DNA of 64,000 nt, from positions 682,001 through 746,000 of the forward strand of contig NZ_JAKEDS010000002.1 in assembly GCF_021462415.1 (NCBI RefSeq). Direction: 5' to 3'. A model generated the notes under the pieces. That model saw nothing but the letters and a program-made list of their open reading frames with translations, was not told the origin of the DNA and searched no databases. A program made the translations under genes and the position numbers. Origin of the DNA: Rhodohalobacter sp. 614A. Its GTDB lineage: Bacteria > Bacteroidota > Rhodothermia > Balneolales > Balneolaceae. Below are positions 22,788 through 44,406 of the stretch, one piece after another. The first letter of the stretch is position 1; each line of letters starts with the position of its first letter.

Positions 22788-23480
22788 ATGAATAATCATC
22801 CAAAACAATCTCCTGCCATAAATAAAAATGAACATCAGATCCATACGATCTTCATCCGGATATTGATGATTATTTTAACGATCGAATGGGCCTATCTGCT
22901 TTATGAAACACAATGGCTGTCACTTTTCCTTGTTTCACTAATTATAATTACACTTTTTGCTCCATCTCTTTTCAAAAGCAAAATGGATTTAGAGTTGCCG
23001 GCGGAATTCCATTTTATGGCCGTCATATTTGTTTTTGCATCGCTCTATCTTGGAGAAGTACAAGAGTTTTATCAAAGAATCTGGTGGTGGGATATCGCTT
23101 TACACACCACCGCCGGACTCATGATGGGAATTGTAGGGTTTCTGATGGTTTATATTTTAAATGAGAGTAAACATGTTGAGCTTCAAATGAGCGCAGCTTT
23201 CATAGCGCTCTTCGCTTTTGTATTTGCCGTATCGATTGGTACAATCTGGGAAATCTATGAGTTTTTTATGGATCAGGTGTTCGGTTTAAACATGCAAAAA
23301 GAAATGTTTACGGATCCATCCGGACTTACAGATACCATGTGGGATATGATTGTGAATGCATTAGGAGCATTTGTGATTAGTTTTACAGGGTGGATGTATA
23401 TCAGAAAGCAAAGACATTTCTTTATAAAATCTCTCATCCAGAAATTCATTGAAAAAAATCCATCCTGGTTTCGAAGATAA
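22788..23480 (+). CDS. DUF2238-like integral membrane protein
   Basis: This 230-residue protein has six hydrophobic segments. The conserved-looking WWWDIALHTTAGLMMG (about residues 97-112) and GTIWEIYEFFMDQVFG (about 149-164) fit the DUF2238 family of inner membrane proteins. The role is not known. It lies immediately upstream of the trp leader region but is separated from it by about 60 bp that contain the likely trp promoter, so it is probably not part of the operon. Confidence 0.75.
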   Translation: MNNHPKQSPAINKNEHQIHTIFIRILMIILTIEWAYLLYETQWLSLFLVSLIIITLFAPSLFKSKMDLELPAEFHFMAVIFVFASLYLGEVQEFYQRIWWWDIALHTTAGLMMGIVGFLMVYILNESKHVELQMSAAFIALFAFVFAVSIGTIWEIYEFFMDQVFGLNMQKEMFTDPSGLTDTMWDMIVNALGAFVISFTGWMYIRKQRHFFIKSLIQKFIEKNPSWFRR

Positions 23481-23540
23481 TATTCTAAAATTTTTTAAAG
23501 TGAAGTTGCATTTAAAAAACTGAACTGATAGTTTTCCTTC

Positions 23541-23621
23541 ATGATGAAAAATGGTTTAACAAATAACATTTGGTGGTGGCGCGGTCAAACATACTTTGGC
23601 AGTGGAATCACTATGATTTAA
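23541..23621 (+). CDS. trpL: trp operon leader peptide with three Trp codons
   Basis: A 26-codon frame starts with ATG ATG at 23541 and stops at 23619-23621. Codons 11-13 are TGG TGG TGG (23571-23579). It reads MMKNGLTNNIWWWRGQTY and then FGSGITMI. Three adjacent Trp codons in a tiny frame directly before a terminator and trpE are diagnostic of ribosome-mediated attenuation. A candidate promoter is TTG (23506-23508) with TAGTTTTC (23529-23536), 20 bp apart; this would place the transcript start very near the ATG, so the leader message may be almost leaderless. Confidence 0.88.
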   Translation: MMKNGLTNNIWWWRGQTYFGSGITMI

Positions 23622-23680
23622 ACCATACACAGAACGAATTTTAAAACCCACTGCAGTTACTCTGGAGTGGGTTTTTTTTT
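23551..23680 (+). promoter_or_regulatory. trp attenuator with mutually exclusive hairpins
   Basis: Segment 1, ATGGTTTAA (23551-23559), pairs with TTAAACCAT (23618-23626) around the Trp codons. GCAGTGG (23599-23605) pairs exactly with CCACTGC (23648-23654) as an antiterminator. The terminator stem AAAACCCACT (23643-23652) / AGTGGGTTTT (23666-23675) uses the same CCCACT bases, so antiterminator and terminator cannot coexist. A ribosome stalled at the Trp codons would block segment 1 and free the antiterminator, allowing trpE transcription when charged tRNA-Trp is scarce. Confidence 0.85.
23643..23680 (+). terminator. Attenuator terminator before trpE
   Basis: A 10-bp stem AAAACCCACT/AGTGGGTTTT ends in an uninterrupted T9 run (23672-23680). 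The trpE ATG is only 7 bp further on, so the hairpin may also hide the ribosome landing site. Confidence 0.9.
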
Positions 23681-23686
23681 GGACAT

Positions 23687-25156
23687 ATGACATTTAAAAC
23701 TTTTTCAAAACTTGCCAAGACATACTCAGCGATCCCGGTATCGCGCAGAATGCTGGCCGACATTTTAACGCCCGTTTCCCTTTTTCTTTCCATTCGCGAA
23801 GGGGCAAAATATCCATTTCTTCTCGAATCTGTTGAAGGTGGAGAGCATTTGGCGAGATACTCATTTATTGGCTGCAATCCGTATCAGGTTCTCTATGTGG
23901 ATGATGAAAATGTAAAGCTTATTAATCCCCAAAAAGAGGAAACAGCGCTACTTCAGGAATCCTATTTTGATGCGTTAAATCGTCTGGTACATCAGCATAC
24001 GGAGCCAAAATTGCCCGAACTACCCAGGTTGACGGGAGGTGCTGTCGGGTTTTCTTCATATGATACCGTACGCGATGTTGAACATCTGCCGGATGTACCA
24101 GAAAACGATCTTCATACGCCCGAAGCCATCTGGTCTTTTTATGATGAGGTCTATGCTTTTGATCACGTGAAGCAGCAAATTGTTTTAATGAAAACGATTT
24201 TTGTTGATGAAGAAACGGATCTAAAGAAGGCTTACGATTCAGCAATTGAGGCTTTGGATCGAATGGAGAACTCTGCCGTACGTCAGGTAAAAAAGGGTGA
24301 GGCATTTAATCTGGATGCAAAAAATCTTTCGAGCAATATGGATCAGGATAAATTCCATTCCATGGTGCAAAAGGGAAAGGAATATATTTATGAAGGCGAT
24401 ATTTTCCAGGTTGTTCTCTCCCAAAGGTTTGAAGTTCCGTTCGAAGGCGACAGTTTTACTCTTTACAGGGCATTAAGAATGGTGAATCCGTCACCCTATC
24501 TTTTTTATCTCGATTTTGATGGATTCTCCCTGGTTGGATCGTCTCCAGAAGTTTTGGTTCGCGTAACTGAATCGGAAGTAAGGCTTCTGCCCATCGCCGG
24601 AACACGAGCGCGTGGAAAGACCCATGAGGAAGATTTAGCTCTTGAAGAAGATTTGAAGAAAGATCCAAAAGAGATTGCTGAACACATTATGCTGGTTGAT
24701 TTGGGAAGAAACGACCTTTCGCGTGTATGCAAATCCGGCACCGTTCATTTAGAACGAAACCAAAGCATTGAGCGGTTTTCTCACGTCATGCATATTGTCT
24801 CCGATGTTGTAGGAAAAATCGCAGATGACAGAAATTCGGTTGATGCCCTTATGCAATGTTTTCCTGCCGGTACGGTCAGCGGGGCGCCAAAAATCCGGGC
24901 TATGGAAATCATTGATGAACTGGAGCCGACCAAACGCGGACCTTATGCCGGTGCAGTCGGGTACTTCGATTTTTCTGGAAATATGGATACTTGTATCGCT
25001 ATCCGGACGATGCTGGTTACAGGAGATCGGGTTTACATCCAGGCGGGAGCGGGAATTGTGGCCGACAGTGATCCTCAAAAAGAATTTGAAGAAACGAAAA
25101 ACAAAGCCGGCGCTTTAGTTGAAGCATTAAGCGTTGCACTTGAAATCACAACTTAG
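23687..25156 (+). CDS. trpE: Anthranilate synthase component I
   Basis: This 489-residue protein is of normal length. The N-terminal FLLESVEGGEHLARYSFIG carries the LLES element that forms the tryptophan feedback site. The chorismate-binding C-terminal half has DIFQVVLSQRFE, LVGSSPEVLVR, PIAGTRARGK, EHIMLVDLGRNDL, FPAGTVSGAPKIRAMEII and QAGAGIVADSDP. It converts chorismate and ammonia or glutamine (through TrpG) to anthranilate. It is first in the operon after the attenuator, so both transcription and enzyme activity respond to tryptophan. Confidence 0.97.
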   Translation: MTFKTFSKLAKTYSAIPVSRRMLADILTPVSLFLSIREGAKYPFLLESVEGGEHLARYSFIGCNPYQVLYVDDENVKLINPQKEETALLQESYFDALNRLVHQHTEPKLPELPRLTGGAVGFSSYDTVRDVEHLPDVPENDLHTPEAIWSFYDEVYAFDHVKQQIVLMKTIFVDEETDLKKAYDSAIEALDRMENSAVRQVKKGEAFNLDAKNLSSNMDQDKFHSMVQKGKEYIYEGDIFQVVLSQRFEVPFEGDSFTLYRALRMVNPSPYLFYLDFDGFSLVGSSPEVLVRVTESEVRLLPIAGTRARGKTHEEDLALEEDLKKDPKEIAEHIMLVDLGRNDLSRVCKSGTVHLERNQSIERFSHVMHIVSDVVGKIADDRNSVDALMQCFPAGTVSGAPKIRAMEIIDELEPTKRGPYAGAVGYFDFSGNMDTCIAIRTMLVTGDRVYIQAGAGIVADSDPQKEFEETKNKAGALVEALSVALEITT

Positions 25157-25196: not shown

Positions 25197-26186
25197 ATGA
25201 GTGATCAGAAAACCATTTTATCGGGAATTCAACCCTCCGGAAAACTGCATATCGGCAACTATTTTGGAGCCATGAGGCAGCATATCCGAATGCAAAAGGA
25301 GGGAGATGCTTTTTATTTTCTTGCGAACTACCACACACTTACTTCCATCAATGATGGTGAATTGCTGAGGCAGTACACACTCGACGTTGTTCTTGACTAT
25401 TTGGCTCTGGGATTGGATCCCAATGAGTGTACTTTTTTTGCCCAATCAGATGTACCGCAGACAACAGAGCTTGCTTGGATTCTGGGTTGCGTAGCACCGG
25501 TTTCACTCATGGAAAAAGGTGTGGCTTATAAAGATAAAGTCGCCCAGGGATTGCAACCGAATGTTGGCCTGTTCAGTTATCCGATATTACAGGCCGCCGA
25601 TATTCTGATTTATCATTCCGATTTGGTTCCGGTTGGGGAAGATCAAAAACAGAATATTGAGATCTGCCGTGACCTTGCTGGAAAACTGAATCGCGCTTTT
25701 GATGCAGAACTTCTGAAATTGCCCGAGGAATATATTGTGAAAAGTGTTGCTGTTGTCCCGGGAATTGACGGCCGAAAGATGAGTAAATCTTATAATAACA
25801 CCATCCAGATTTTTGATGAAGGCAAATCCCTGAAAAGCAAAGTGATGTCCATTCAAACGGACTCAACTCCGCTGGAAGAGCCAAAAGATCCCGAAACCTG
25901 CAACGTTTTTGCTTTGATTAAACTCTTTGCCGCAGATGACAAAAGGGAAGAAATAGCCGAGAAATATCGGGCGGGCGGATATGGATATGGCCATGCCAAA
26001 AAAGAATTATTGGGAATGATTACGGGTTACTTTTCCGAAGCCCGTGAAAAGCGAAAAGAATTGGTAAAGGACATGGATTATGTCCACGATGTACTAAAAG
26101 AAGGCGGAAAAAAAGCACGTGAACGCGCAGAATCCGTTATGGAACCGATACGATCAAACACAGGACTTTATAGAAGTTTTAAATGA
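25197..26186 (+). CDS. trpS: Tryptophanyl-tRNA synthetase
   Basis: This 329-residue class I synthetase has the HIGH-type signature GIQPSGKLHIGNYFGA (residues 10-25) and the KMSKS loop in DGRKMSKSYNN. It charges tRNA-Trp. It lies 40 bp after trpE and before trpG on the same strand, so it is probably read from the trp promoter and under the attenuator that senses charged tRNA-Trp. This would form a direct feedback loop on charging. It is of normal length and shows no odd residues. Confidence 0.96.
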   Translation: MSDQKTILSGIQPSGKLHIGNYFGAMRQHIRMQKEGDAFYFLANYHTLTSINDGELLRQYTLDVVLDYLALGLDPNECTFFAQSDVPQTTELAWILGCVAPVSLMEKGVAYKDKVAQGLQPNVGLFSYPILQAADILIYHSDLVPVGEDQKQNIEICRDLAGKLNRAFDAELLKLPEEYIVKSVAVVPGIDGRKMSKSYNNTIQIFDEGKSLKSKVMSIQTDSTPLEEPKDPETCNVFALIKLFAADDKREEIAEKYRAGGYGYGHAKKELLGMITGYFSEAREKRKELVKDMDYVHDVLKEGGKKARERAESVMEPIRSNTGLYRSFK

Positions 26187-26377: not shown

Positions 26378-26962
26378 ATGATATTGATAATCGACAATTA
26401 CGACTCTTTTACCTATAACCTTGTGCATATAGTTGCGACGGAAACAGACGATTACAAGGTAATTCGAAACGATGCAATGTCGGTCGAAGAAGTGAAGGCA
26501 CTTAACCCGGATAAAATTTTGATTTCACCGGGGCCGGGCCGACCCGAAGATGCCGGTATTACTGAAGATTTAATTCGTGAACTTGGACCTGAAATTCCTG
26601 TACTCGGCGTTTGCCTTGGTCACCAGGCCATTGGCGATGTATTCGGTGCCAAAGTGGTATACGCACCAAGTTTGATGCACGGGAAGACATCCGAGATTTT
26701 TCATGATGGAAAATCAGTTTTTAAAGGGGTTGAAGATGGATTTACAGCAACGCGATATCACTCTTTGGTATTGGCTCCGGAAACGATTCCTGATGATCTT
26801 GAGATCTCAGCAAAGACAGAAGATGGAGTGATCATGGGAGTTCGTCATAAGTCGTTTCCAATTGAAGGAATTCAGTTTCATCCCGAAAGTATTTTGACAA
26901 CTGAAGGGCCGAAAATTGTAAAGAACTGGTTAAAGTCTTCATATCAAAAAGTAAAAGCCTAA
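26378..26962 (+). CDS. trpG: Anthranilate synthase component II (glutamine amidotransferase)
   Basis: This 194-residue class I amidotransferase has LIIDNYDSFTYNLVH at the start, the oxyanion segment ISPGPGRP, the nucleophile elbow GVCLGHQAIG (Cys79), and the catalytic His-Glu pair in IQFHPESIL. It supplies ammonia from glutamine to TrpE. It is separated from trpS by the repeat-bearing gap and followed 15 bp later by trpD. Confidence 0.95.
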   Translation: MILIIDNYDSFTYNLVHIVATETDDYKVIRNDAMSVEEVKALNPDKILISPGPGRPEDAGITEDLIRELGPEIPVLGVCLGHQAIGDVFGAKVVYAPSLMHGKTSEIFHDGKSVFKGVEDGFTATRYHSLVLAPETIPDDLEISAKTEDGVIMGVRHKSFPIEGIQFHPESILTTEGPKIVKNWLKSSYQKVKA

Positions 26963-26977
26963 TAAACGTTACGCATT

Positions 26978-28015
26978 GTGAATAAATCATTTACAGAAAT
27001 ACTTGAAAAAATTTCTATGCATGATCATTTGACAGATCATGAGGCTTCTTTGGCTATGAAGCTTATTCTGCATGGGGATATATCCGACGAAGAAATTGCT
27101 GCTTTTTTACTTGGCATGAGAATGAAAGGAGAAACGGTTGTTGAACTCACGTCATTCGTCCAGGAGATGCGTTCTGTTGCCGTTCCGGTTGAAGTGGATA
27201 CCAAACATGCGGTGGATTTATGCGGTACCGGTGGCGACAAATCCGGTACATTTAACATTTCTACAACAGCGATGTTCATTGTTGCCGGGGCCGGAGTTCC
27301 CGTTTTAAAACATGGAAACCGGAGTGTTTCCAGCAAAAGCGGAAGTTATGATGTTCTTGAACTTCTCGGAGCCGTTCCGAATCTTCAAAAAAAGCAGGTA
27401 GAAGAGTTATTCAATAAAACGGGAATGGCATTTATGTTTGCGCCAAATTTTCATCCGGCGATGAAATACGTAATGCCCGCACGCCGCGCTTTAAAAATGA
27501 GAACATTTTTCAATATTCTTGGGCCGCTCGTTAATCCGGCAAATGTGAAATGCCAGGTGATTGGAGCTTTTAATAAGGAGACGGCAAAGAAAATGATCCA
27601 AATTCTCGGAAATTTACACACAGAAAATGCTTATACCGTCAATGCACATGATGGTTTGGATGAGGTAAGCACAACGTCTCAAAGCGAAATTTTTGAACTA
27701 AAAACCCATCTGAGCGGTGATTCCGTGACTTTCGATCCCATTTCCCTGGGATATGAAAAAACGGATCATAATTCTCTTCTTGGAGGAGATGCAAAACAAA
27801 ATGCTCAAATCCTGATGAATGTGCTTGAAGGAAAATCAACAAAAGCACAGCGGGATATTGCAGAACTGAATGCATTGTTTGCCATCCGGGCGTCCAATAT
27901 TACAGATGATCTCGAAGAAGCGAAAGAGATGGCCGTACGAAGTATCGATTCCGGTGAAGCCGGGAAAAAGCTGGATCAGTTTATTAAAGAATCACAAGCG
28001 ATTGCAGCGGGATAG
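26978..28015 (+). CDS. trpD: Anthranilate phosphoribosyltransferase
   Basis: This 345-residue protein starts at a GTG. The PRPP-binding loop DLCGTGGDKSGTFNIST, the GNRSVSSKSGSYDVLE segment and the HDGLDEVS motif are all present. It transfers phosphoribose to anthranilate. It ends 2 bp before the trpC start, fitting tight operon packing. Confidence 0.96.
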   Translation: MNKSFTEILEKISMHDHLTDHEASLAMKLILHGDISDEEIAAFLLGMRMKGETVVELTSFVQEMRSVAVPVEVDTKHAVDLCGTGGDKSGTFNISTTAMFIVAGAGVPVLKHGNRSVSSKSGSYDVLELLGAVPNLQKKQVEELFNKTGMAFMFAPNFHPAMKYVMPARRALKMRTFFNILGPLVNPANVKCQVIGAFNKETAKKMIQILGNLHTENAYTVNAHDGLDEVSTTSQSEIFELKTHLSGDSVTFDPISLGYEKTDHNSLLGGDAKQNAQILMNVLEGKSTKAQRDIAELNALFAIRASNITDDLEEAKEMAVRSIDSGEAGKKLDQFIKESQAIAAG

Positions 28016-28017
28016 AT

Positions 28018-28839
28018 ATGGCTGATATTCTAAAAAAAATTACGGGTCAAACCTTCGAGGATCTCAAGAAACGTAAGCGAGAAATTTCATTTCGTGATTT
28101 GGAATCCCTTCGCGGATATGAGAAGGAAAGGCTGGATTTTGCCGGAGCATTGAAAACAGATTCAGTTTCAATCATATCCGAGATAAAAAAAGCGTCTCCT
28201 TCCAAAGGTATTATTCGGGATGATTTTGATCCGAAAAAAATAGCGGAGGCTTATGTCGAAAATGGGGCATCAGCCATTTCTGTATTGACAGACGAGCCAT
28301 TTTTTAAAGGCTCTTTGAAATATCTTGAAACTGTTTCAGAAGATTGTCCGATTCCATTGCTGCGCAAAGATTTCATCATAGATCCGTATCAAATAAAAGA
28401 AGCAAAATCTTACGGTGCAGATGCTGTACTTTTGATCGTAACGATGTACGAAGGAAGTCAACTTTCTGAGCTTCTTGCTGCGGCAAAAGAGTTTGAATTA
28501 GATGCATTGGTTGAATGCTATGAGCGTGAGGAAGTTGAAAATCTGGAATGGAAGGGAATTGAAATTTTAGGTGTAAATAACCGTGACCTGAAAACCTTTG
28601 AAGTTAACTTGCATCGCGGAATTGAACTTTTGCAATTGGCCCCCGATGAGGTCGTAACTGTCTCTGAAAGTGGAATACATAATCCGGATGATTTACTGAA
28701 GTTGTATAAAAACGGAATTCAATCTGCTTTGATCGGCGAGCATTTTATGAAACAACCGGATATTGGAGCGGGGTTAAGAAGCTTTTTAGAGGAGTTTGAA
28801 GAATTGAAATCCAGAGATATTTCCACAGAGGAAGTTTGA
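28018..28839 (+). CDS. trpC: Indole-3-glycerol phosphate synthase
   Basis: This 273-residue TIM barrel has the catalytic segments SIISEIKKASPSKG, PLLRKDFIIDPYQI, LVECYEREE, GVNNRDLKTFEV and VSESGIHNPDDL. It closes the indole ring to make indole-3-glycerol phosphate. It lies in the operon between trpD and trpF, 3 bp before trpF. It is not fused to TrpF. Confidence 0.96.
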   Translation: MADILKKITGQTFEDLKKRKREISFRDLESLRGYEKERLDFAGALKTDSVSIISEIKKASPSKGIIRDDFDPKKIAEAYVENGASAISVLTDEPFFKGSLKYLETVSEDCPIPLLRKDFIIDPYQIKEAKSYGADAVLLIVTMYEGSQLSELLAAAKEFELDALVECYEREEVENLEWKGIEILGVNNRDLKTFEVNLHRGIELLQLAPDEVVTVSESGIHNPDDLLKLYKNGIQSALIGEHFMKQPDIGAGLRSFLEEFEELKSRDISTEEV

Positions 28840-28842
28840 TTT

Positions 28843-29508
28843 ATGAGTGATTCATCAAACAAAAGAACAAAAGTTAAAATTTGCGGCATAACAACTCTGG
28901 AGGATGCACGGTTTGCATCGGGTGCTCTTGCTGATTATCTCGGATTCATTTTTTACGATAAAAGTCCCAGGTATATTGAACCGGCAAAGGCCGGCGCTAT
29001 TATCAATTGGATTGAAGGTCCGCAAAAAGTTGGCGTTTTTGTGAATCAGCCGTTGGATGATGTGAATGAAATTGCAATGCGAACAGGAATCGATTTGGTT
29101 CAGCTCCACGGCGATGAATCACCGGGATATTGCGATATGATCAATTTTCCTGTGATTAAAGTTTTTCATATCACCAAACAAACAAACTCCGGGGATTTGG
29201 TGTCTGAAATTGAAGCCTATAAAAATTCAGCCGATTACTTTTTGTTTGATACGAAAATTGATGATCTCTACGGTGGAACCGGTCAGACTTTTGATTGGTC
29301 GTTAATACAGGATTTATCTTTGGGGAAACCATTTTTTCTTTCTGGAGGATTGAATCCCGGAAATGTTGCAGAGGCTATTAAAAAAGTATCTCCGGATGTG
29401 GTAGATCTCTCCAGCGGATTGGAGGAAGCACCCGGTCTCAAAGATTTTGATAAAATTGAAACGTTCTTTGATGTGATGCGAGACATCTGGGAAGAACAAG
29501 AATCGTAG
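28843..29508 (+). CDS. trpF: Phosphoribosylanthranilate isomerase
   Basis: This 221-residue TIM barrel has VKICGITTLEDARFA (general base Cys), FVNQPLDDV, LVQLHGDES, FLLFDTKID-type strands, GGTGQTFDW and LSGGLNPGNV. It isomerises phosphoribosylanthranilate. A dispersed inverted repeat separates it from trpB. Confidence 0.95.
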   Translation: MSDSSNKRTKVKICGITTLEDARFASGALADYLGFIFYDKSPRYIEPAKAGAIINWIEGPQKVGVFVNQPLDDVNEIAMRTGIDLVQLHGDESPGYCDMINFPVIKVFHITKQTNSGDLVSEIEAYKNSADYFLFDTKIDDLYGGTGQTFDWSLIQDLSLGKPFFLSGGLNPGNVAEAIKKVSPDVVDLSSGLEEAPGLKDFDKIETFFDVMRDIWEEQES

Positions 29509-29633: not shown

Positions 29634-30824
29634 ATGAAATACACAGCACCCACAAAAACAGGTTACTTTGGCGATTATGGCGGAAAGTTTGTCCCCGAAA
29701 TTTTGATTCCGGCTCTGGATGAATTGGAAGCTGCTTATGAAGAGACTCAAAATGATCCTCTTTTTCAGAAGGAGTATCATGATCTGCTTCGGGAATATGT
29801 TGGCCGGCCGACAAAGCTGACTTTCGCAAACCGTCTCACTGACTATTACGGCAAGGCCAAAATCTATCTCAAAAGAGAAGATTTATGCCATACGGGAGCC
29901 CATAAAATTAATAATGCGATTGGCCAACTTTTGCTTGCCAGGAAAATGGGTAAACGCCGGATCATTGCCGAAACCGGGGCAGGTCAGCACGGTGTAGCCA
30001 CGGCAACTGCTTGCGCAAAATTCGGTTTCGATTGTGTGATTTACATGGGGGCTGAAGATATGGAGCGGCAAAAGCTAAATGTTGATCGCATGCAATTGCT
30101 CGGTGCCGAGGTTCGATCGGTAGAAAGTGGCTCAAAGACTTTGAAAGATGCCACAAACGAAGCAATTCGCGATTGGGTGACGAATGTGGACGATACGTTT
30201 TATATCATTGGGTCGGTGGTCGGGCCGCACCCATATCCTATGATGACCCGAAATTTTCAAAAGGTAATTGGCGAGGAAACCAAAGATCAGATCCGAAAAG
30301 CTGAAGGGAAATTGCCGGATTATCTTGTTGCGTGTGTGGGCGGCGGAAGTAATGCCATCGGTTTTTTCTATCCTTTTATTGAAGATGAAGACGTAAAAAT
30401 GATCGGGCTTGAAGCCGCAGGTTTGGGAGCGGATACGAACCAGACGGCAGCAACACTTACCAAAGGGACTCCGGGTGTACTACACGGTTCTCTAAGCTAT
30501 CTTCTGCAAAGTGATGAGGGCCAAATTCAACTGGCCCATTCCATCAGTGCCGGATTGGATTATCCCGGCATAGGCCCCGAACATTCCTATCTACATGATT
30601 CGAAACGAGTTCATTATCACGCTGTGACTGATAGCGAAGCAATGGAAGCGGTCGAATTGATCTCAAGAAAAGAAGGAATTATTCCTGCCATTGAGAGTGC
30701 ACATGCATTTGCATATCTCGAGAAGTTGATGCCGATGACTCAGAAAGACGAGATTATTATAGTAAACTGTTCGGGTCGTGGAGATAAAGACATGAAAACA
30801 ATATCCGAGTGGTTTTCTCAGTAA
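29634..30824 (+). CDS. trpB: Tryptophan synthase beta chain
   Basis: This 396-residue protein is of the normal TrpB1 length. The start reads [15 protein letters not shown], the PLP lysine is in [12 protein letters not shown], the catalytic Glu is in [15 protein letters not shown], and the phosphate loop is [10 protein letters not shown]. It condenses indole with serine. Its partner TrpA is not next to it but about 12.8 kb downstream at 43588. Confidence 0.97.
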
Positions 30825-38032: not shown

Positions 38033-38117
38033 AATCTTGTGATTTCATATTTTTCAAGGGCAATTGCCATTCGAATGCAACAATGAGCCTAACTTTAACC
38101 AATTAATGGACATCAGG

Positions 38118-41100
38118 ATGAAAAAGAGATATACAGTAAAGCTTTTATGCTTTTTATGTATGGGAGTGTTGGTGAATCATATCGCCATTGCACAAGATTT
38201 TACGGTTCAGGGAACCGTTTTTTCTTCAGACAATGAGGAAGCGCTTCCAGGAGTGAATATTATTGTGAAAAACACTGATATTGGAACGACAAGTAACGTA
38301 GATGGAGAATTTTCGCTTGTAGTTCCTTCCGAGAATGATACTCTTGTGTTTTCATACATCGGTTATGAAACACTGGAAGAGCCTATTGCCGGGAGGAGTA
38401 ATCTGGATATTTTACTTGTGCCACAGGCAATTGTAGGCGAAGAGCTCGTGGTAGTAGGTTACGGTGCAGTGAGGGAAGAGGCAGTAACAGGTTCAGTAGC
38501 CTCGATAAGTGGGGATGCTGTGGCAGAAGTGCCATCTGCCAATATTACTAACGCTTTGCAAGGTCGATTGCCGGGGGTTCAATTCTCGCAAACATCTTCT
38601 AAACCGGGATCTTCAATGCAGATCCGCATTCGTGGTACACGGTCGCTTACGGCCAGCAATGATCCTTTGGTAGTGTTGAATGGGATCCCTTTTTCAGGAT
38701 CCATCAGCGATATCAATCCCAACTCCATCCAGAGCATAGACATTTTGAAGGATGCCTCCGCAACAGCTATTTATGGTTCAAGGGGAGCGAATGGTGTCAT
38801 TCTGGTATCAACAAAAAGGGGAGAAAGAGGCCAGGAAGGGGCAACGATAAGTTATAATGGCTACACGGGCATCAACACTGTTTTTTCCAAATATCCCATG
38901 ATGAATGGTCCCGAATTTGTGGCTCTGAGAGAGGCTTCCGAAGACTACCCTACAAATGGAGCTGATGAGTCCAATGATATTAATACCGATTGGCAAGACT
39001 TATTATACCAAAATGGTGTAGTGACAAGCCACGATATAGCTGTTGCCGGTGGAACCGATCAGGGAAGCTATAACTTTGGCGTTGGATATTACAGTAATGT
39101 AGGAGTGGTTCCCACCCAAAAGTACGATCGGATTTCTTTACGGGGGTCAATCGATCAGCAGATCGGAGAATATTTTCGTTTTGGTCTCAATTCAAACAAT
39201 AATTACAACATTACGGAAGGCTCTCAAGTAGGTTTGTACGGCATTTTAAGTATGTCGCCTATTGCAGATCCCTATAACGATGATGGATCCTGGAAAAGAA
39301 CCATCAACATGCCGGATGATGAACAGTGGTTATATTCAGAAGAGATTTTGGAGGATATTGATGACTTGTGGTTAAGTGAAACCAGGGGTTATGCTACATA
39401 TAATTCTATATATGGTGAGCTGGATATTCCGGGAATTGAAGGTTTAACATATCGTGCGAACCTGGGTTTGGATTTTCGCCAGAGTAATGGCGGAGAATTT
39501 AAAGGACAGGGAATCAACAGTACCAATCCCGAAACCGAATCAACGGCATCAGTCAGTAATTCACATACCTATCACTGGATTATTGAAAATATCGTAACCT
39601 ACGATCGTATTTTTGCAGAAAACCATGAGGTGAATTTAACCGGGTTATACTCTGCAGAAGAGAATAAGTATAACCGATCATACATGGCCGCAAGAGATAT
39701 CCCGGTCTCCGCTTTTCAGTTCTACAATTTGGGACATGCGGCAGGGGAAAAGACGATTGATCCTGGGGAGCAACAATATGAGAAGAGTGGTTTGATGTCA
39801 TGGATGGGGCGAATCATGTATATCTATGATGATCGCTACATGTTTACAGCTACTTTACGATCTGATGGTTCCTCAAGACTGGCGGAAGGACATCAGTGGC
39901 ATACCTATCCTGCTATATCTGTTGGCTGGAATGTTGGCAACGAATCGTTTATGGAGGATGTAGAGCTGATTGACAGGTTGAAACTGCGGGCAGGTTATGG
40001 AGAAACTTCCAACCAGGCCATAGCTCCTTACGCCACTCTTGGTCGTTTAGCTACACGGCCATATAACTTTGGTCCGGATACTTATGATACCGGGTATTAT
40101 GTGTCTGAGCTACCAAACCCTAATTTGGGATGGGAGTATTCGGAAACATGGAATTATGGAGTGGATTTCGCGATTCTGAATCATCGATTGTCTGGTACCA
40201 TAGAGTATTACGTAACAAGTACGAAAGATATTCTGCTGGGAGTAAATCTGCCCGGTACCTCGGGTGTAGGCAGTTACACGGCAAATATTGGAGAGACGCA
40301 AAACAAAGGGTTAGAGCTTTCACTTAATGGTGTTATTCTGGAAAACCTAAACGGCTGGTCTTGGGAAGCCGGAATCAACGTTTACGGCAACCGAAATAAA
40401 CTGGTATCACTTGCTTCAGACCAGGAACGTGATGAAAGTAACTGGTGGTTCGTTGGACATCCCATTGATGTTATATACGGCTACAAAAAAATTGGGCTTT
40501 GGCAAGAGGGTGATCCCTACCTGGATATTCTGGAACCGGGAGGCAATGTAGGTATGATTAAAGTTGAATATACCGGTGAATACAACGAAAATGGCGAGCC
40601 CGTACGGGCTATTGGTCCGGAAGACCGGCAAGTCATTGATCTGGAACCCGATTTTCTGGGAGGTTTCAATACGCGTGTGGCATATAAAGGATTTGATTTG
40701 AATGTAGTTGGTGCTTTTCAGCGTGGCGGCATTCTCATCAGTACGCTTCATTCTGCATCAGGGTATCTCAATATGCTGAGCGGGCGCAGAAATAATGTAG
40801 ATGTAGATTATTGGACCCCAGAAAATACAGATGCCGATTATCCTGCACCCGGCGGTATTACCAGTGGAGACAACCCCGAACATGGAGAAACTCTTGCACA
40901 GTTTGATGCATCATACCTGAAAGTACGTACTCTCACACTTGGGTATAACTTCAGTCAGAGCAATTGGTTACAAAACGCCGGAATCAGCGGGTTACGGATT
41001 TATGCTACGGTACAAAATCCATTTGTATTGTTTTCACCATTTCACAGTGAAACAGGTATGGATCCGGAAACCAATTCGTATGGTGATGAAAATGCGGCCA

Positions 41101-41192
41101 CAACCGAGGTATATCCAAGCCGTTTGTTGACAGTAGGTACGAACTCTCCGGCTACACGCAACTACCTTTTAGGCATTAACTTTACATTTTAA
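38118..41192 (+). CDS. SusC/RagA-type TonB-dependent outer membrane transporter
   Basis: The ATG at 38118 gives 1024 residues and a proper signal peptide (MKKRYTVKLLCFLCMG...IAIAQ); the ATG at 38064 would add 18 unlikely residues. A carboxypeptidase-regulatory-like domain follows (VQGTVFSSDNEEALPGVNI), then the TonB box area EELVVVGYGAVREEAVTG, the plug domain (ALQGRLPGVQFSQ, SIQSIDILKDASATAIYGSRG) and a 22-strand barrel ending in LGINFTF. It imports a glycan or oligosaccharide together with the SusD partner 18 bp downstream. No glycoside hydrolase is nearby. Confidence 0.95.
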   Translation: MKKRYTVKLLCFLCMGVLVNHIAIAQDFTVQGTVFSSDNEEALPGVNIIVKNTDIGTTSNVDGEFSLVVPSENDTLVFSYIGYETLEEPIAGRSNLDILLVPQAIVGEELVVVGYGAVREEAVTGSVASISGDAVAEVPSANITNALQGRLPGVQFSQTSSKPGSSMQIRIRGTRSLTASNDPLVVLNGIPFSGSISDINPNSIQSIDILKDASATAIYGSRGANGVILVSTKRGERGQEGATISYNGYTGINTVFSKYPMMNGPEFVALREASEDYPTNGADESNDINTDWQDLLYQNGVVTSHDIAVAGGTDQGSYNFGVGYYSNVGVVPTQKYDRISLRGSIDQQIGEYFRFGLNSNNNYNITEGSQVGLYGILSMSPIADPYNDDGSWKRTINMPDDEQWLYSEEILEDIDDLWLSETRGYATYNSIYGELDIPGIEGLTYRANLGLDFRQSNGGEFKGQGINSTNPETESTASVSNSHTYHWIIENIVTYDRIFAENHEVNLTGLYSAEENKYNRSYMAARDIPVSAFQFYNLGHAAGEKTIDPGEQQYEKSGLMSWMGRIMYIYDDRYMFTATLRSDGSSRLAEGHQWHTYPAISVGWNVGNESFMEDVELIDRLKLRAGYGETSNQAIAPYATLGRLATRPYNFGPDTYDTGYYVSELPNPNLGWEYSETWNYGVDFAILNHRLSGTIEYYVTSTKDILLGVNLPGTSGVGSYTANIGETQNKGLELSLNGVILENLNGWSWEAGINVYGNRNKLVSLASDQERDESNWWFVGHPIDVIYGYKKIGLWQEGDPYLDILEPGGNVGMIKVEYTGEYNENGEPVRAIGPEDRQVIDLEPDFLGGFNTRVAYKGFDLNVVGAFQRGGILISTLHSASGYLNMLSGRRNNVDVDYWTPENTDADYPAPGGITSGDNPEHGETLAQFDASYLKVRTLTLGYNFSQSNWLQNAGISGLRIYATVQNPFVLFSPFHSETGMDPETNSYGDENAATTEVYPSRLLTVGTNSPATRNYLLGINFTF

Positions 41193-41210
41193 ATATTTGA
41201 GAGGAAAAAA

Positions 41211-43157
41211 ATGAAACGTTTAAAAATAAAATCTTTTTTAGGAACCGCTGTCCTGGCGTTTTTGATAGCGTCCTGCACTGATATTTTGAATGAGGAGCCA
41301 CGTAGCGTTTATGAACCGGGTTTTTTCGAGACTGAAGAAGGTGTCCGAGGCGGGTTAACATCAATGTACGCACACCTGCGCTATATTTATGGAAATGCCT
41401 ACTTTTACAACACCACTCAAACCGGTACAGATGAAGCGACGTACGCTCAAAGTGCAGACCAGAACTTCTTGGTTATGGATATTTCCGGTCGGGGAGATAT
41501 TACTCCTGAAACCAGCCGTGCTGATGTATTGTGGGGAAACTCGTTTAACAATATCAACACAGCTAACGGAATTATTGAGAATGGTGAAACCGTGGGCATT
41601 TCTGATGCTCTGATTGCCGAAGCCCGCTTTTTCCGTGCCTTCGACTATTTTATGCTTGTACAAACATTCGGCGGAGTTCCCCTGGATTTGGGTGCGGGAG
41701 AACTGGCGTTCAACGACAATCCTGTAAGAGTCTCTTCTCGTAATACCGTGCCGGAGGTTTATACTCAAGCCATATTTCCGGATCTGCTGCAAGCGGTAAA
41801 TGATCTTCCGGATAATCCACGGATTACGGGTGGCGTCACCAAAACGGTGGCACGTCTTTACCTGGCAAAAGCGTACCTGACATTTGGATGGTGGCTGCAG
41901 AATCCCAATAACATCCCGACATATCCGGAGACCAGCCGATCCGATCCTGACGGAAATGACGCCCAATGGTATTTTCAACAAGCGTATGATGTGGCAACTA
42001 CAGCTATCGACAATCCGGGCCCATTCGCCCTGCAGGATACGTATTACGATGTGAACTGGGCTCCAAATGATCGAAATAGCGAAATCCTGTTGTATGCCGA
42101 TCATACCGAGACTAGTGAATATTACAACGATTCCAGCCTTACGTATGCAAACGGAGGAGGCGCTGATAATTTTGCTGTCTGGATGATGACCTGGAATTAT
42201 ACCGTTCTGCGAAGTAGCTCTTCAAATACAGAATGGTTGGGTGATATAGAATCTGTTCGCCGGGAAGCAGTACAACCTCTCGGACGTCCTTGGATTCGGA
42301 TGAGCCCTACCATCGGAGCCATTACCAATACCTTTGATGATAAGACGAATGATTCTCGTTATGACGGTACTTTCACAACGGTCTATCGGTCTAATATTGA
42401 TGTAGAACCGGCCATATCAGGGCCTGTATATAACGCAAACGGTATGGAAGTAGCAGGCGGAGATCCAATTCTTACATTTTTGGATGAAGAGCCAGCTACC
42501 CCAATAGATTATTCGCTTCCACCCGAACAAGGTGCTAATGTAGGAGCAGGAGTACTGCCCGGCAGGCCGGATTTTGTTATTGGTCCAAATGATATAAGCA
42601 GAAGGGTATACCCGGGTCTTTGGAAACTTGGTGTTTACCGTACCGATAGTGGCAATGGGCTGGGGCAACCGAATGCGGCCAGCACACGTCCCTTCAATAT
42701 TGCTAAATTTTCTGAGTTGTATTTTATAGCTGCAGAAGCAGCCGTGAAAGGTGCGACAGGAAGCAGAAGTGCCAGAGAACTGATTAATGTAATTCGTGCA
42801 CGCGCAGGAATGTGGCGCTGGGACAATAGCGAAAATGAAGAGCGAATAGAAGACAACAGCGCAGAAATGGTAGCTGCAACACCCTCGATAATTGACATCG
42901 ATTATATTTTAGAGGAACGTTCTCGTGAATATTTCGGGGAAGGATACCGATGGTATGATCTGATTCGTACCCAAAAATGGGAAGAAGTTGCCGGTAGCTA
43001 TGAAATTGCGGGCGACAATTATGGAGATCATACTCCTCAAACGGTAACCCGTTCTATTCAACCCTACCATTATTTACGGCCGATTCCACAAGGTCAACTG
43101 GATGCCCTTGATATGAGTGCGGCTGAAAAAGATACATATCAAAATCCGGGATACTGA
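41211..43157 (+). CDS. SusD/RagB-type outer membrane lipoprotein
   Basis: This is a 648-residue protein with a lipoprotein signal ending in IASC (Cys22). The SusD helical framework is present: FFETEEGVRGGLTSMYAHLR, NNINTANGIIENG, EARFFRAFDYFMLVQTFGGVPL, VARLYLAKAYLTFG, FNIAKFSELYFIAAEAAVKG, LINVIRARAGM and ILEERSREYFGEGYRWYDLIR. It sits over the SusC barrel at the cell surface and binds the glycan. It is the last gene of the unit, followed by a terminator at 43218-43257. Confidence 0.95.
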   Translation: MKRLKIKSFLGTAVLAFLIASCTDILNEEPRSVYEPGFFETEEGVRGGLTSMYAHLRYIYGNAYFYNTTQTGTDEATYAQSADQNFLVMDISGRGDITPETSRADVLWGNSFNNINTANGIIENGETVGISDALIAEARFFRAFDYFMLVQTFGGVPLDLGAGELAFNDNPVRVSSRNTVPEVYTQAIFPDLLQAVNDLPDNPRITGGVTKTVARLYLAKAYLTFGWWLQNPNNIPTYPETSRSDPDGNDAQWYFQQAYDVATTAIDNPGPFALQDTYYDVNWAPNDRNSEILLYADHTETSEYYNDSSLTYANGGGADNFAVWMMTWNYTVLRSSSSNTEWLGDIESVRREAVQPLGRPWIRMSPTIGAITNTFDDKTNDSRYDGTFTTVYRSNIDVEPAISGPVYNANGMEVAGGDPILTFLDEEPATPIDYSLPPEQGANVGAGVLPGRPDFVIGPNDISRRVYPGLWKLGVYRTDSGNGLGQPNAASTRPFNIAKFSELYFIAAEAAVKGATGSRSARELINVIRARAGMWRWDNSENEERIEDNSAEMVAATPSIIDIDYILEERSREYFGEGYRWYDLIRTQKWEEVAGSYEIAGDNYGDHTPQTVTRSIQPYHYLRPIPQGQLDALDMSAAEKDTYQNPGY

Positions 43158-43587: not shown

Positions 43588-44406
43588 ATGATCGCACAAA
43601 AATCCCGTATTCAATCCCTGTTTGAAAATAAGTCTGACGATGAAAAAATCATGTCGCTCTTTATTTCTGCAGGTTATCCCGATTTAGAATCAACGGTTGA
43701 TTTGATTCTCGGATTTGAAAAAAACGGTGCTGATCTGATAGAGCTTGGGATGCCTTTTAGCGATCCGCTTGCAGATGGCCCTACCATCCAGTACGCCAGC
43801 AATATTGCAATAGAGAATGGAATAACGATGGATGGAATTTTTGTAATGGTTCGAGAGATCCGTAAATCATCCGAAATTCCATTGATCCTTATGGGATACA
43901 TCAACCCAATCATGAAATACGGCATTGATCGATTTTGTAAAGAAGCCGAAAGTAGTGGTGTAGATGGTTTGATTATTCCTGATGCACCGGTTGAGGAATC
44001 AACCATTATTTCTGAAAAAGCCGAGAATCATAATCTTGACCTTGTCTATCTGGTGGCTCCGAATTCATCGGATGAACGCATGAAAGTGGTTGATGAGCAC
44101 AGCAAAGGTTTTGTATACTGTGTGTCTGTTACCGGGGTAACAGGGGCCAGGGAAGGAGATGAGGTGGCAAAATCTGTTGAGAGATTTATCGACAGAGTCA
44201 AAACAAATGTTCGTAAAAATCCTAAGCTTGTGGGATTCGGAATCAAAAATTTTCAGGATGCTCAAATAATATCTAAAGAAGTGGATGGTTTTATAGTAGG
44301 AAGCGCCCTTATTGATGCCATCAGAAGTGAGTATCCCAAACAGGGATGGAAGAATCATGTTCTCTCCTTTGTTAAAGAATTAAAATATGGAAACAACCAA
44401 GCGTAA
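43588..44406 (+). CDS. trpA: Tryptophan synthase alpha chain
   Basis: This 272-residue TIM barrel has LFISAGYPDLESTV, IELGMPFSDPLADGP (catalytic Glu), and IPDAPVEES and GVTGAREGD loops. It cleaves indole-3-glycerol phosphate to indole for TrpB. It is detached from the trpE-to-trpB operon by about 12.8 kb and has its own upstream region with no Trp-rich leader, so it may escape the attenuator. The DUF4837 lipoprotein gene follows after 13 bp. Confidence 0.96.
   Translation: MIAQKSRIQSLFENKSDDEKIMSLFISAGYPDLESTVDLILGFEKNGADLIELGMPFSDPLADGPTIQYASNIAIENGITMDGIFVMVREIRKSSEIPLILMGYINPIMKYGIDRFCKEAESSGVDGLIIPDAPVEESTIISEKAENHNLDLVYLVAPNSSDERMKVVDEHSKGFVYCVSVTGVTGAREGDEVAKSVERFIDRVKTNVRKNPKLVGFGIKNFQDAQIISKEVDGFIVGSALIDAIRSEYPKQGWKNHVLSFVKELKYGNNQA

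Follow-up and report, generated by a model that had tools for sequence, protein, structure and literature searches.

In the trp attenuator of E. coli (RF00513, Trp_leader), a leader with tandem Trp codons is combined with four RNA regions, mutually exclusive 2:3 and 3:4 pairings, and a U-run before trpE. Outside the Proteobacteria, leader-peptide attenuation has been documented in Actinobacteria (PMC1262725) and, in Flavobacterium psychrophilum, pointed out for amino-acid operons (PMC9723704), and the Bacteroid-trp RNA (RF01692) was described by Weinberg et al. 2010 as a Trp-leader RNA of Bacteroidetes (PMC2864571). The trpLE(G) transcript of Sinorhizobium meliloti begins with the trpL AUG and is leaderless, its WWW lies at codons 10-12, and attenuation operates there without transcription repression (PMC7298713). 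Leader-peptide attenuation has also been predicted for aminoacyl-tRNA synthetase genes, namely Streptomyces trpS (PMC1262725) and Rhodobacterales cysS (uORFC-8-2; PMC8632094). Switches of this type have thus far been recognised, in principle, in the broad group to which Rhodohalobacter belongs. Here, we describe an element upstream of the trp operon of a halophilic Rhodohalobacter that has all of the E. coli features listed above and is very probably a classical ribosome-mediated trp transcription attenuator. The first-pass annotation had put this locus forward as a clear example from a lineage distant from the Proteobacteria; an attenuator is indeed found in Balneolota, although the precedents in Actinobacteria and Bacteroidetes weaken its novelty.

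The window, that is, the whole stretch of DNA that was analysed, comprises 64,000 nucleotides, and the trp locus lies on its forward strand from the promoter to trpB. Its nearest named TrpE is that of Rhodohalobacter sulfatireducens (89% identity), and the window's genome falls in the same genus. The initial description of the host as "Bacteroidota-like" was correct: the genus is Rhodohalobacter, which belongs to Balneolota in NCBI and is placed within Bacteroidota in GTDB usage. The leader peptide ORF trpL (23541-23621; ATG at 23541, TAA at 23619-23621) consists of 26 codons plus stop and encodes MMKNGLTNNIWWWRGQTYFGSGITMI, with three regulatory Trp codons, TGGTGGTGG, as codons 11-13 (23571-23579). 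Region 2 (GCAGTGG, 23599-23605), the 5' arm of the antiterminator, lies within the ORF and is the 7-bp complement of region 3 (CCACTGC, 23648-23654), which overlaps the 5' arm of the intrinsic terminator. The terminator, or 3:4 structure (23643-23680), comprises a 10-bp stem with the arms AAAACCCACT (23643-23652) and AGTGGGTTTT (23666-23675), a 3-bp upper stem, and a T9 run at 23672-23680. Direct reading of the sequence bore out the coordinates, the 26-codon leader with its three consecutive Trp codons, the 7-bp antiterminator and the 10-bp terminator of the first-pass annotation; the T9 run likewise lies just upstream of trpE, at a distance of 6 nt from its ATG (23687) rather than the 7 initially given.

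Thermodynamic folding, which had been proposed as a check on the locus, showed the leader to be more stable than expected from its composition: the 150-nt fold reached -43.7 kcal/mol, compared with -27.6 +/- 3.3 in dinucleotide shuffles (z = -4.9, 0/200 as good). The 1:2 and 3:4 structures are both present in this fold, as would be expected for untranslated leader RNA. The former consists of a 9-bp outer helix, P1, whose fold-derived arms are 23551-23559 and 23618-23626 (the latter overlapping the trpL stop codon), and an inner hairpin containing the Trp codons. When the terminator arm was held fixed and the sequence 3' of the Trp codons was shuffled, a 2:3 helix of the real length arose in none of 300 shuffles for the window species, and the same test across the 47 loci with a leader (see below) gave p <= 0.05 in 30 of them. 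Chance is ruled out by the recurrence of this set of elements before trpE in 47 of 49 Balneolales genomes.

This count comes from the trpE upstream regions of 50 genomes, the window's own included, 49 of which had an intact upstream region, the contig of the remaining one being truncated. A short ORF with tandem Trp codons followed by a terminator was found in 47 of these 49 Balneolales loci, and it is missing in the marine Balneola lineage and one further genome (G056). The leaders carry WWW or longer in 43 cases, WW in three and WCW in one, and the first Trp codon is invariably 8-11 codons past an in-frame ATG, that is, at codon 9-12 (47/47). Two layouts were observed. Most Balneolaceae leaders have 22-26 codons (about 23) with region 2 inside the ORF. 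Leaders of the remaining families, and those of L025, L010 and L019, have 15-20 codons, stop 6-10 codons past the first Trp, and carry region 2 at or near the stop codon. Either way, region 2 is positioned beyond a Trp-stalled ribosome and beneath a ribosome at the stop codon. A hairpin with a G+C-rich base followed by a U-run, as in an intrinsic terminator, is present in all 47.

The pairing itself is also maintained. Over 47 species, the first seven 2:3 pairs are standard in 94.8% of cases, compared with 27-42% when the register is slid by 1-2 nt. One position changes jointly in regions 2, 3 and 4, from T-A-T to C-G-C with G-U intermediates: the 2:3 pair is TA in 22 species, TG in 7 and CG in 18, and the matching 3:4 pair is AT in 22, GT in 5 and GC in 20. 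The 2:3 duplex has -13.6 kcal/mol with its own partner and -8.0 with partners exchanged between two clades, and the P1 duplex has -10.4 kcal/mol with its own partner and -7.35 +/- 0.35 with partners permuted between species (0/2000 as strong), relatedness being only partly corrected in these controls. Within the Balneolaceae alignment, 5 of 12 pairs of the terminator stem show compensatory change. Conserved Trp codons and covarying stems were the support that the first-pass annotation had named in advance, and the comparison supplied both, the latter as coordinated 2-3-4 changes and compensatory terminator pairs.

Past the WWW, the sequences argue that RNA rather than peptide is conserved. Many leaders end in AVESL, which is region 2 and the following bases read in frame (GCA GTG GAA TCA CTA TGA). 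In the window species, a 1-nt insertion shifts the conserved GCAGTGG to another frame, so that ...GSGITMI replaces ...AVESL, and the L010 and L019 leaders end before this segment with the region 2 nucleotides unchanged. Because such frameshifted or truncated leaders keep region 2, the RNA appears to be under selection, with the peptide mattering only through the position of its Trp codons. The same observation bears on an arrest peptide of the TnaC type, in which the nascent peptide together with free tryptophan would stall the ribosome, so that free Trp and not tRNA charging is sensed. The TnaC system likewise has a Trp-containing leader upstream of Trp-related genes; however, frameshifts or truncations alter the peptide of several species with no change in the RNA, which speaks against a sequence-specific arrest peptide, and stalling at high Trp would switch biosynthesis on when Trp is plentiful. 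We regard this mechanism as very improbable.

The position of the promoter relative to the leader is similarly constant. A predicted promoter, TTGC-N19-TAgtTTtC (23506-23536; -7 box at 23529-23536), precedes trpL in the window, and TTG[AC]-N19-TAnnTT with its TA 11-16 nt upstream of the leader ATG was found at all 47 loci (46 with exactly N19, one with N20), whereas shuffled sequences gave it at 0.12 of 47 loci and the loci contain the motif at 0.23 per kb. In Flavobacterium, the sigma-A -7 box maps to -12..-5 (PMC9723704). Transferred to a Balneolota host, this consensus places the predicted transcription start of the window's leader on the first base of its ATG, or a few nt to either side of 23541, and that of nearly all relatives 0-4 nt before their ATG. 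To our knowledge, transcription starts have not been mapped in Balneolota. Ordinary genes in a 464-kb sample of the same genome have a similar motif at a distance of 33-96 nt from the start codon, apart from a single case at 6, so the spacing at the leader is not the genome's norm; the strict form TTG[AC]-N19-TAnnTTTG occurred too seldom there to yield a promoter consensus for the whole genome. In Bacteroidota, leaderless mRNAs are uncommon, at 3.7-5.5% (PMC7366714, PMC9723704).

A promoter in this place also bears on whether the hairpin could simply be the terminator of the upstream gene, with the short ORF incidental. An unrelated gene does end at 23480, 160 nt upstream. Nevertheless, that gene and the leader are separated by the predicted promoter, the element is kept beside upstream neighbours of unrelated kinds (the gene preceding it in the window was detected at only 3 other loci), and the conservation or covariation of Trp codons, region 2 and region 3 is at odds with a mere upstream-gene terminator. 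Taken together, we consider this explanation so improbable as to be almost negligible.

Downstream of the attenuator, trpE (anthranilate synthase component I, 23687-25156; TIGR00564, 566 bits, over the cut-off) is followed by trpS, encoding tryptophanyl-tRNA synthetase (25197-26186; TIGR00233, 290.7 bits), and then by trpG (26378-26962), trpD (26978-28015), trpC (28018-28839) and trpF (28843-29508), each identified by an NCBIfam match, and trpB (29634-30824; TIGR00263, 645 bits), the last gene of the contiguous operon. The trpA gene is located about 13 kb past trpB, at 43588-44406, and no Trp leader was seen upstream of it in the window. The stretch from 31039 to the end of trpA at 44406 also holds a SusC/SusD-like pair (38064-43157) and, likewise between trpB and trpA, a gene for a LacI-type regulator; trpA follows close behind trpB in several relatives.

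The trpS gene directly follows trpE in all 50 Balneolales loci and comes after trpE in 14 of the 15 other Rhodothermia loci sampled, with a trpE-trpS gap of -1 to about 240 nt. The window's genome has one TrpS over the cut-off; a second, weak match is far below it and has the size of a tyrosyl-tRNA synthetase. Since the leader-type promoter motif was found in the 300 nt upstream of trpS at 0 of 50 loci and the gene is single, the synthetase appears to be expressed from the attenuated promoter. TrpRS, which sets the signal, thus appears to be under the control of the attenuator. This arrangement differs from Streptomyces trpS and Rhodobacterales cysS, where the synthetase has its own attenuator, whereas Rhodohalobacter trpS is a member of the biosynthetic operon. 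With trpS under the attenuator, basal TrpRS would have to come from leaky termination, and the level of TrpRS is predicted to respond to a charging level that TrpRS itself sets. If true, such feedback by way of tRNA charging would be unusual, and it would hold throughout the order, with trpE-trpS linkage extending over most of the class.

Gene order also informs the comparison with S. meliloti. The two systems share the leaderless layout (predicted in Rhodohalobacter) and a similarly placed WWW (codons 10-12 and 11-13, respectively), but S. meliloti is an alphaproteobacterium whose 14-codon leader precedes trpE(G) alone, without trpS (PMC7298713). The common layout is best read as convergence, which is likelier than horizontal transfer from Alphaproteobacteria because the operons differ. 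Compared with the E. coli attenuator and RF00513, the Rhodohalobacter element has a predicted leaderless start and a longer 1:2 structure that encloses the Trp codons, trpS lies within the operon, and TrpR was not found.

The attenuator would work as follows. RNA polymerase would begin on the leader AUG itself or a few nt away, and the ORF would be read from a leaderless or nearly leaderless transcript. With tRNA-Trp uncharged, the first ribosome should stall on the Trp codons 11-13 and cover the 5' arms of the 1:2 structure, which would free region 2 for region 3; the 2:3 pairing would then block the terminator and allow trpE-trpS-trpG-trpD-trpC-trpF-trpB to be transcribed. When tRNA-Trp is charged, the ribosome would reach the stop codon and cover region 2, leaving region 3 to pair with region 4, and transcription would stop upstream of trpE. 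Low charging would then yield more tryptophan synthesis together with more of the enzyme that charges tRNA-Trp, the sole trpS being the second gene of the operon. A leaderless start predicts that the first ribosome at the 5' AUG loads fast enough to control RNA polymerase, and the mechanism as a whole implies tight transcription-translation coupling at the trp operon in a lineage mostly without Shine-Dalgarno-like sequence.

Ribosome-masked folding, for which we assumed a 15-nt downstream footprint, is consistent with both states. With a ribosome on the first Trp codon and RNA available through region 3, the 2:3 helix formed in 47 of 47 species; with a ribosome at the stop codon, 3:4 formed without 2:3, again in 47 of 47. 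Once region 4 is present, 3:4 is usually the more stable structure, with a stalled ribosome as well, which means that read-through has to depend on 2:3 being trapped kinetically. For 15 of the 47 species, 2:3 also tends to form in naked RNA that ends before region 4, and these modelled folds suggest that the 1:2 structure is not equally protective among species. Of the alternatives to control by tRNA charging, the two that were searched for found no support: no TrpR over the cut-off was detected in 21 relatives, and the T-box (RF00230) was detected in 0 of the 21 relatives' genomes, with positive controls matched.

The switch could also act on translation, with the leader peptide governing trpE: the hairpin would hide the initiation region, and stalling would open the hairpin. 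The hairpin and its U-run do stop only 6 nt short of the trpE AUG in the window, and with a Shine-Dalgarno-like sequence in few genes of this genome (11/206), unstructured RNA near the AUG may matter. This seems very improbable, as the terminator-like form of the hairpin, with its G+C-rich base and U-run, is kept in 47 of 47, and several species (L025, L026, L034, L036 and L044) have some 60-110 nt between the hairpin and the trpE start, which the hairpin is then too distant to hide. Transcription attenuation is the reading that we retain.

We then compared the element with described RNA families. The window's leader had no Rfam match at the gathering threshold; RF00513 aligned over its full length with 26.5 bits (E 0.0024 in 401 nt), short of its gathering value of 41 bits. 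His_leader matches in a relaxed, sub-threshold search were rejected as reflecting the terminator hairpin. RF01692, whose published members are flavobacteria, matched 27 of 248 genomes, all but one from a single family, and at its gathering value of 49 bits it matched neither the window nor any Balneolales genome sampled. Both RNAs are Trp leaders upstream of trpE within the same broad phylum, and the RF01692 loci that we re-read encode WWW leaders (L187, MKISTVHTWWWKNLRQTS; L188, MQTILNNTWWWNNLRQTS), but the sequence core of the Balneolales element is distinct (GNAGTGG / CCCRCT in Balneolaceae), as is its operon, in which trpS accompanies trpE. With a covariance model built here, R1, 84 of 196 class genomes, every one of them from Balneolales, had a full-length match at E <= 1e-9; 40 of the matched sequences had served to train it. 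Among its weaker full-length matches are real trp leaders of family f10 upstream of trpE (L146/L174, L147), and matches below about 35 bits, mostly generic terminators, were excluded from the counts. The element is a new sequence family of a known switch type; it extends ribosome-mediated trp attenuation to Balneolota with covariation support, and current RNA family models miss it.

R1 also matched leaders with Cys codons and the same region 2/region 3 design. One of them lies in the window's own genome, outside the window (G000:C4, L199 275-385), where the Cys leader MNQKKPTTNILAPAHRNMCCMMCCMMMPRKVVERIC is followed by the terminator AAGCCCGCTACC...GGTGGCGGGCTTTTTT and then by genes for a sulfurtransferase, an assimilatory sulfite reductase, a uroporphyrinogen-III methyltransferase and a cysH-like protein. 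From its sequence, we consider it a candidate Cys attenuator of sulfate assimilation. Thirteen of 13 Cys leaders have an 8-12 bp region 2 able to compete with the terminator (for example, GGTAGTGG / CCGCTACC, GATAGTGG / CCACTATC and AATGGTGGTGG / CCGCTGCCATT), and no Rfam family matches the Cys leader. Cys attenuators with terminators have been described for Rhodobacterales cysS (PMC8632094), and mycobacterial cys operons have Cys leaders that lack terminators (PMC1262725). We tentatively propose, as a possibility rather than a probability, that Balneolales use one attenuator design (region 2 GNAGTGG in the leader ORF, terminator arm CCCRCT) for more than one amino acid, a single genome having both a leaderless Trp version over an operon containing the sole trpS and a Cys version over sulfate assimilation. 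The notable additions to what is known of this kind of switch are a leader predicted to be leaderless, a sole trpS gene placed under the attenuator, and a related Cys element.

Cys-rich leaders of the MCCMMCC type, with a region 2 competing with the terminator and with a sulfurtransferase - sulfite reductase - uroporphyrinogen-III methyltransferase - cysH operon downstream, were seen at ten loci (L199, positions 275-430, and L191-L196, L198, L200 and L201). A second type (MTTT...CMCC...), also with a terminator, occurs in another Balneolales family (L153, L154 and L156; G048, G051 and G055), and in L154 it precedes a DASS-type anion symporter.

Several observations concern trpE upstream regions in other lineages. 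In the marine Balneola lineage (L029, L074-L079, L171), a promoter-like sequence and a conserved hairpin/terminator precede trpE without a Trp leader ORF, and a conserved non-coding 5' region, partly AACCTCCAAAGGTTG-like, takes the place of the leader. Rhodothermia outside Balneolales also have WWW leaders upstream of trpE (L174, L147, L179 and L186), with trpS linked to trpE in L174, L179 and L186. Finally, two Deltaproteobacteria MAGs (L085, L086) contain WWW leader ORFs (e.g., MTDSESTCVHNVVLEWWWVYHIDRDLCAPFVGY) 137-139 nt upstream of trpE.
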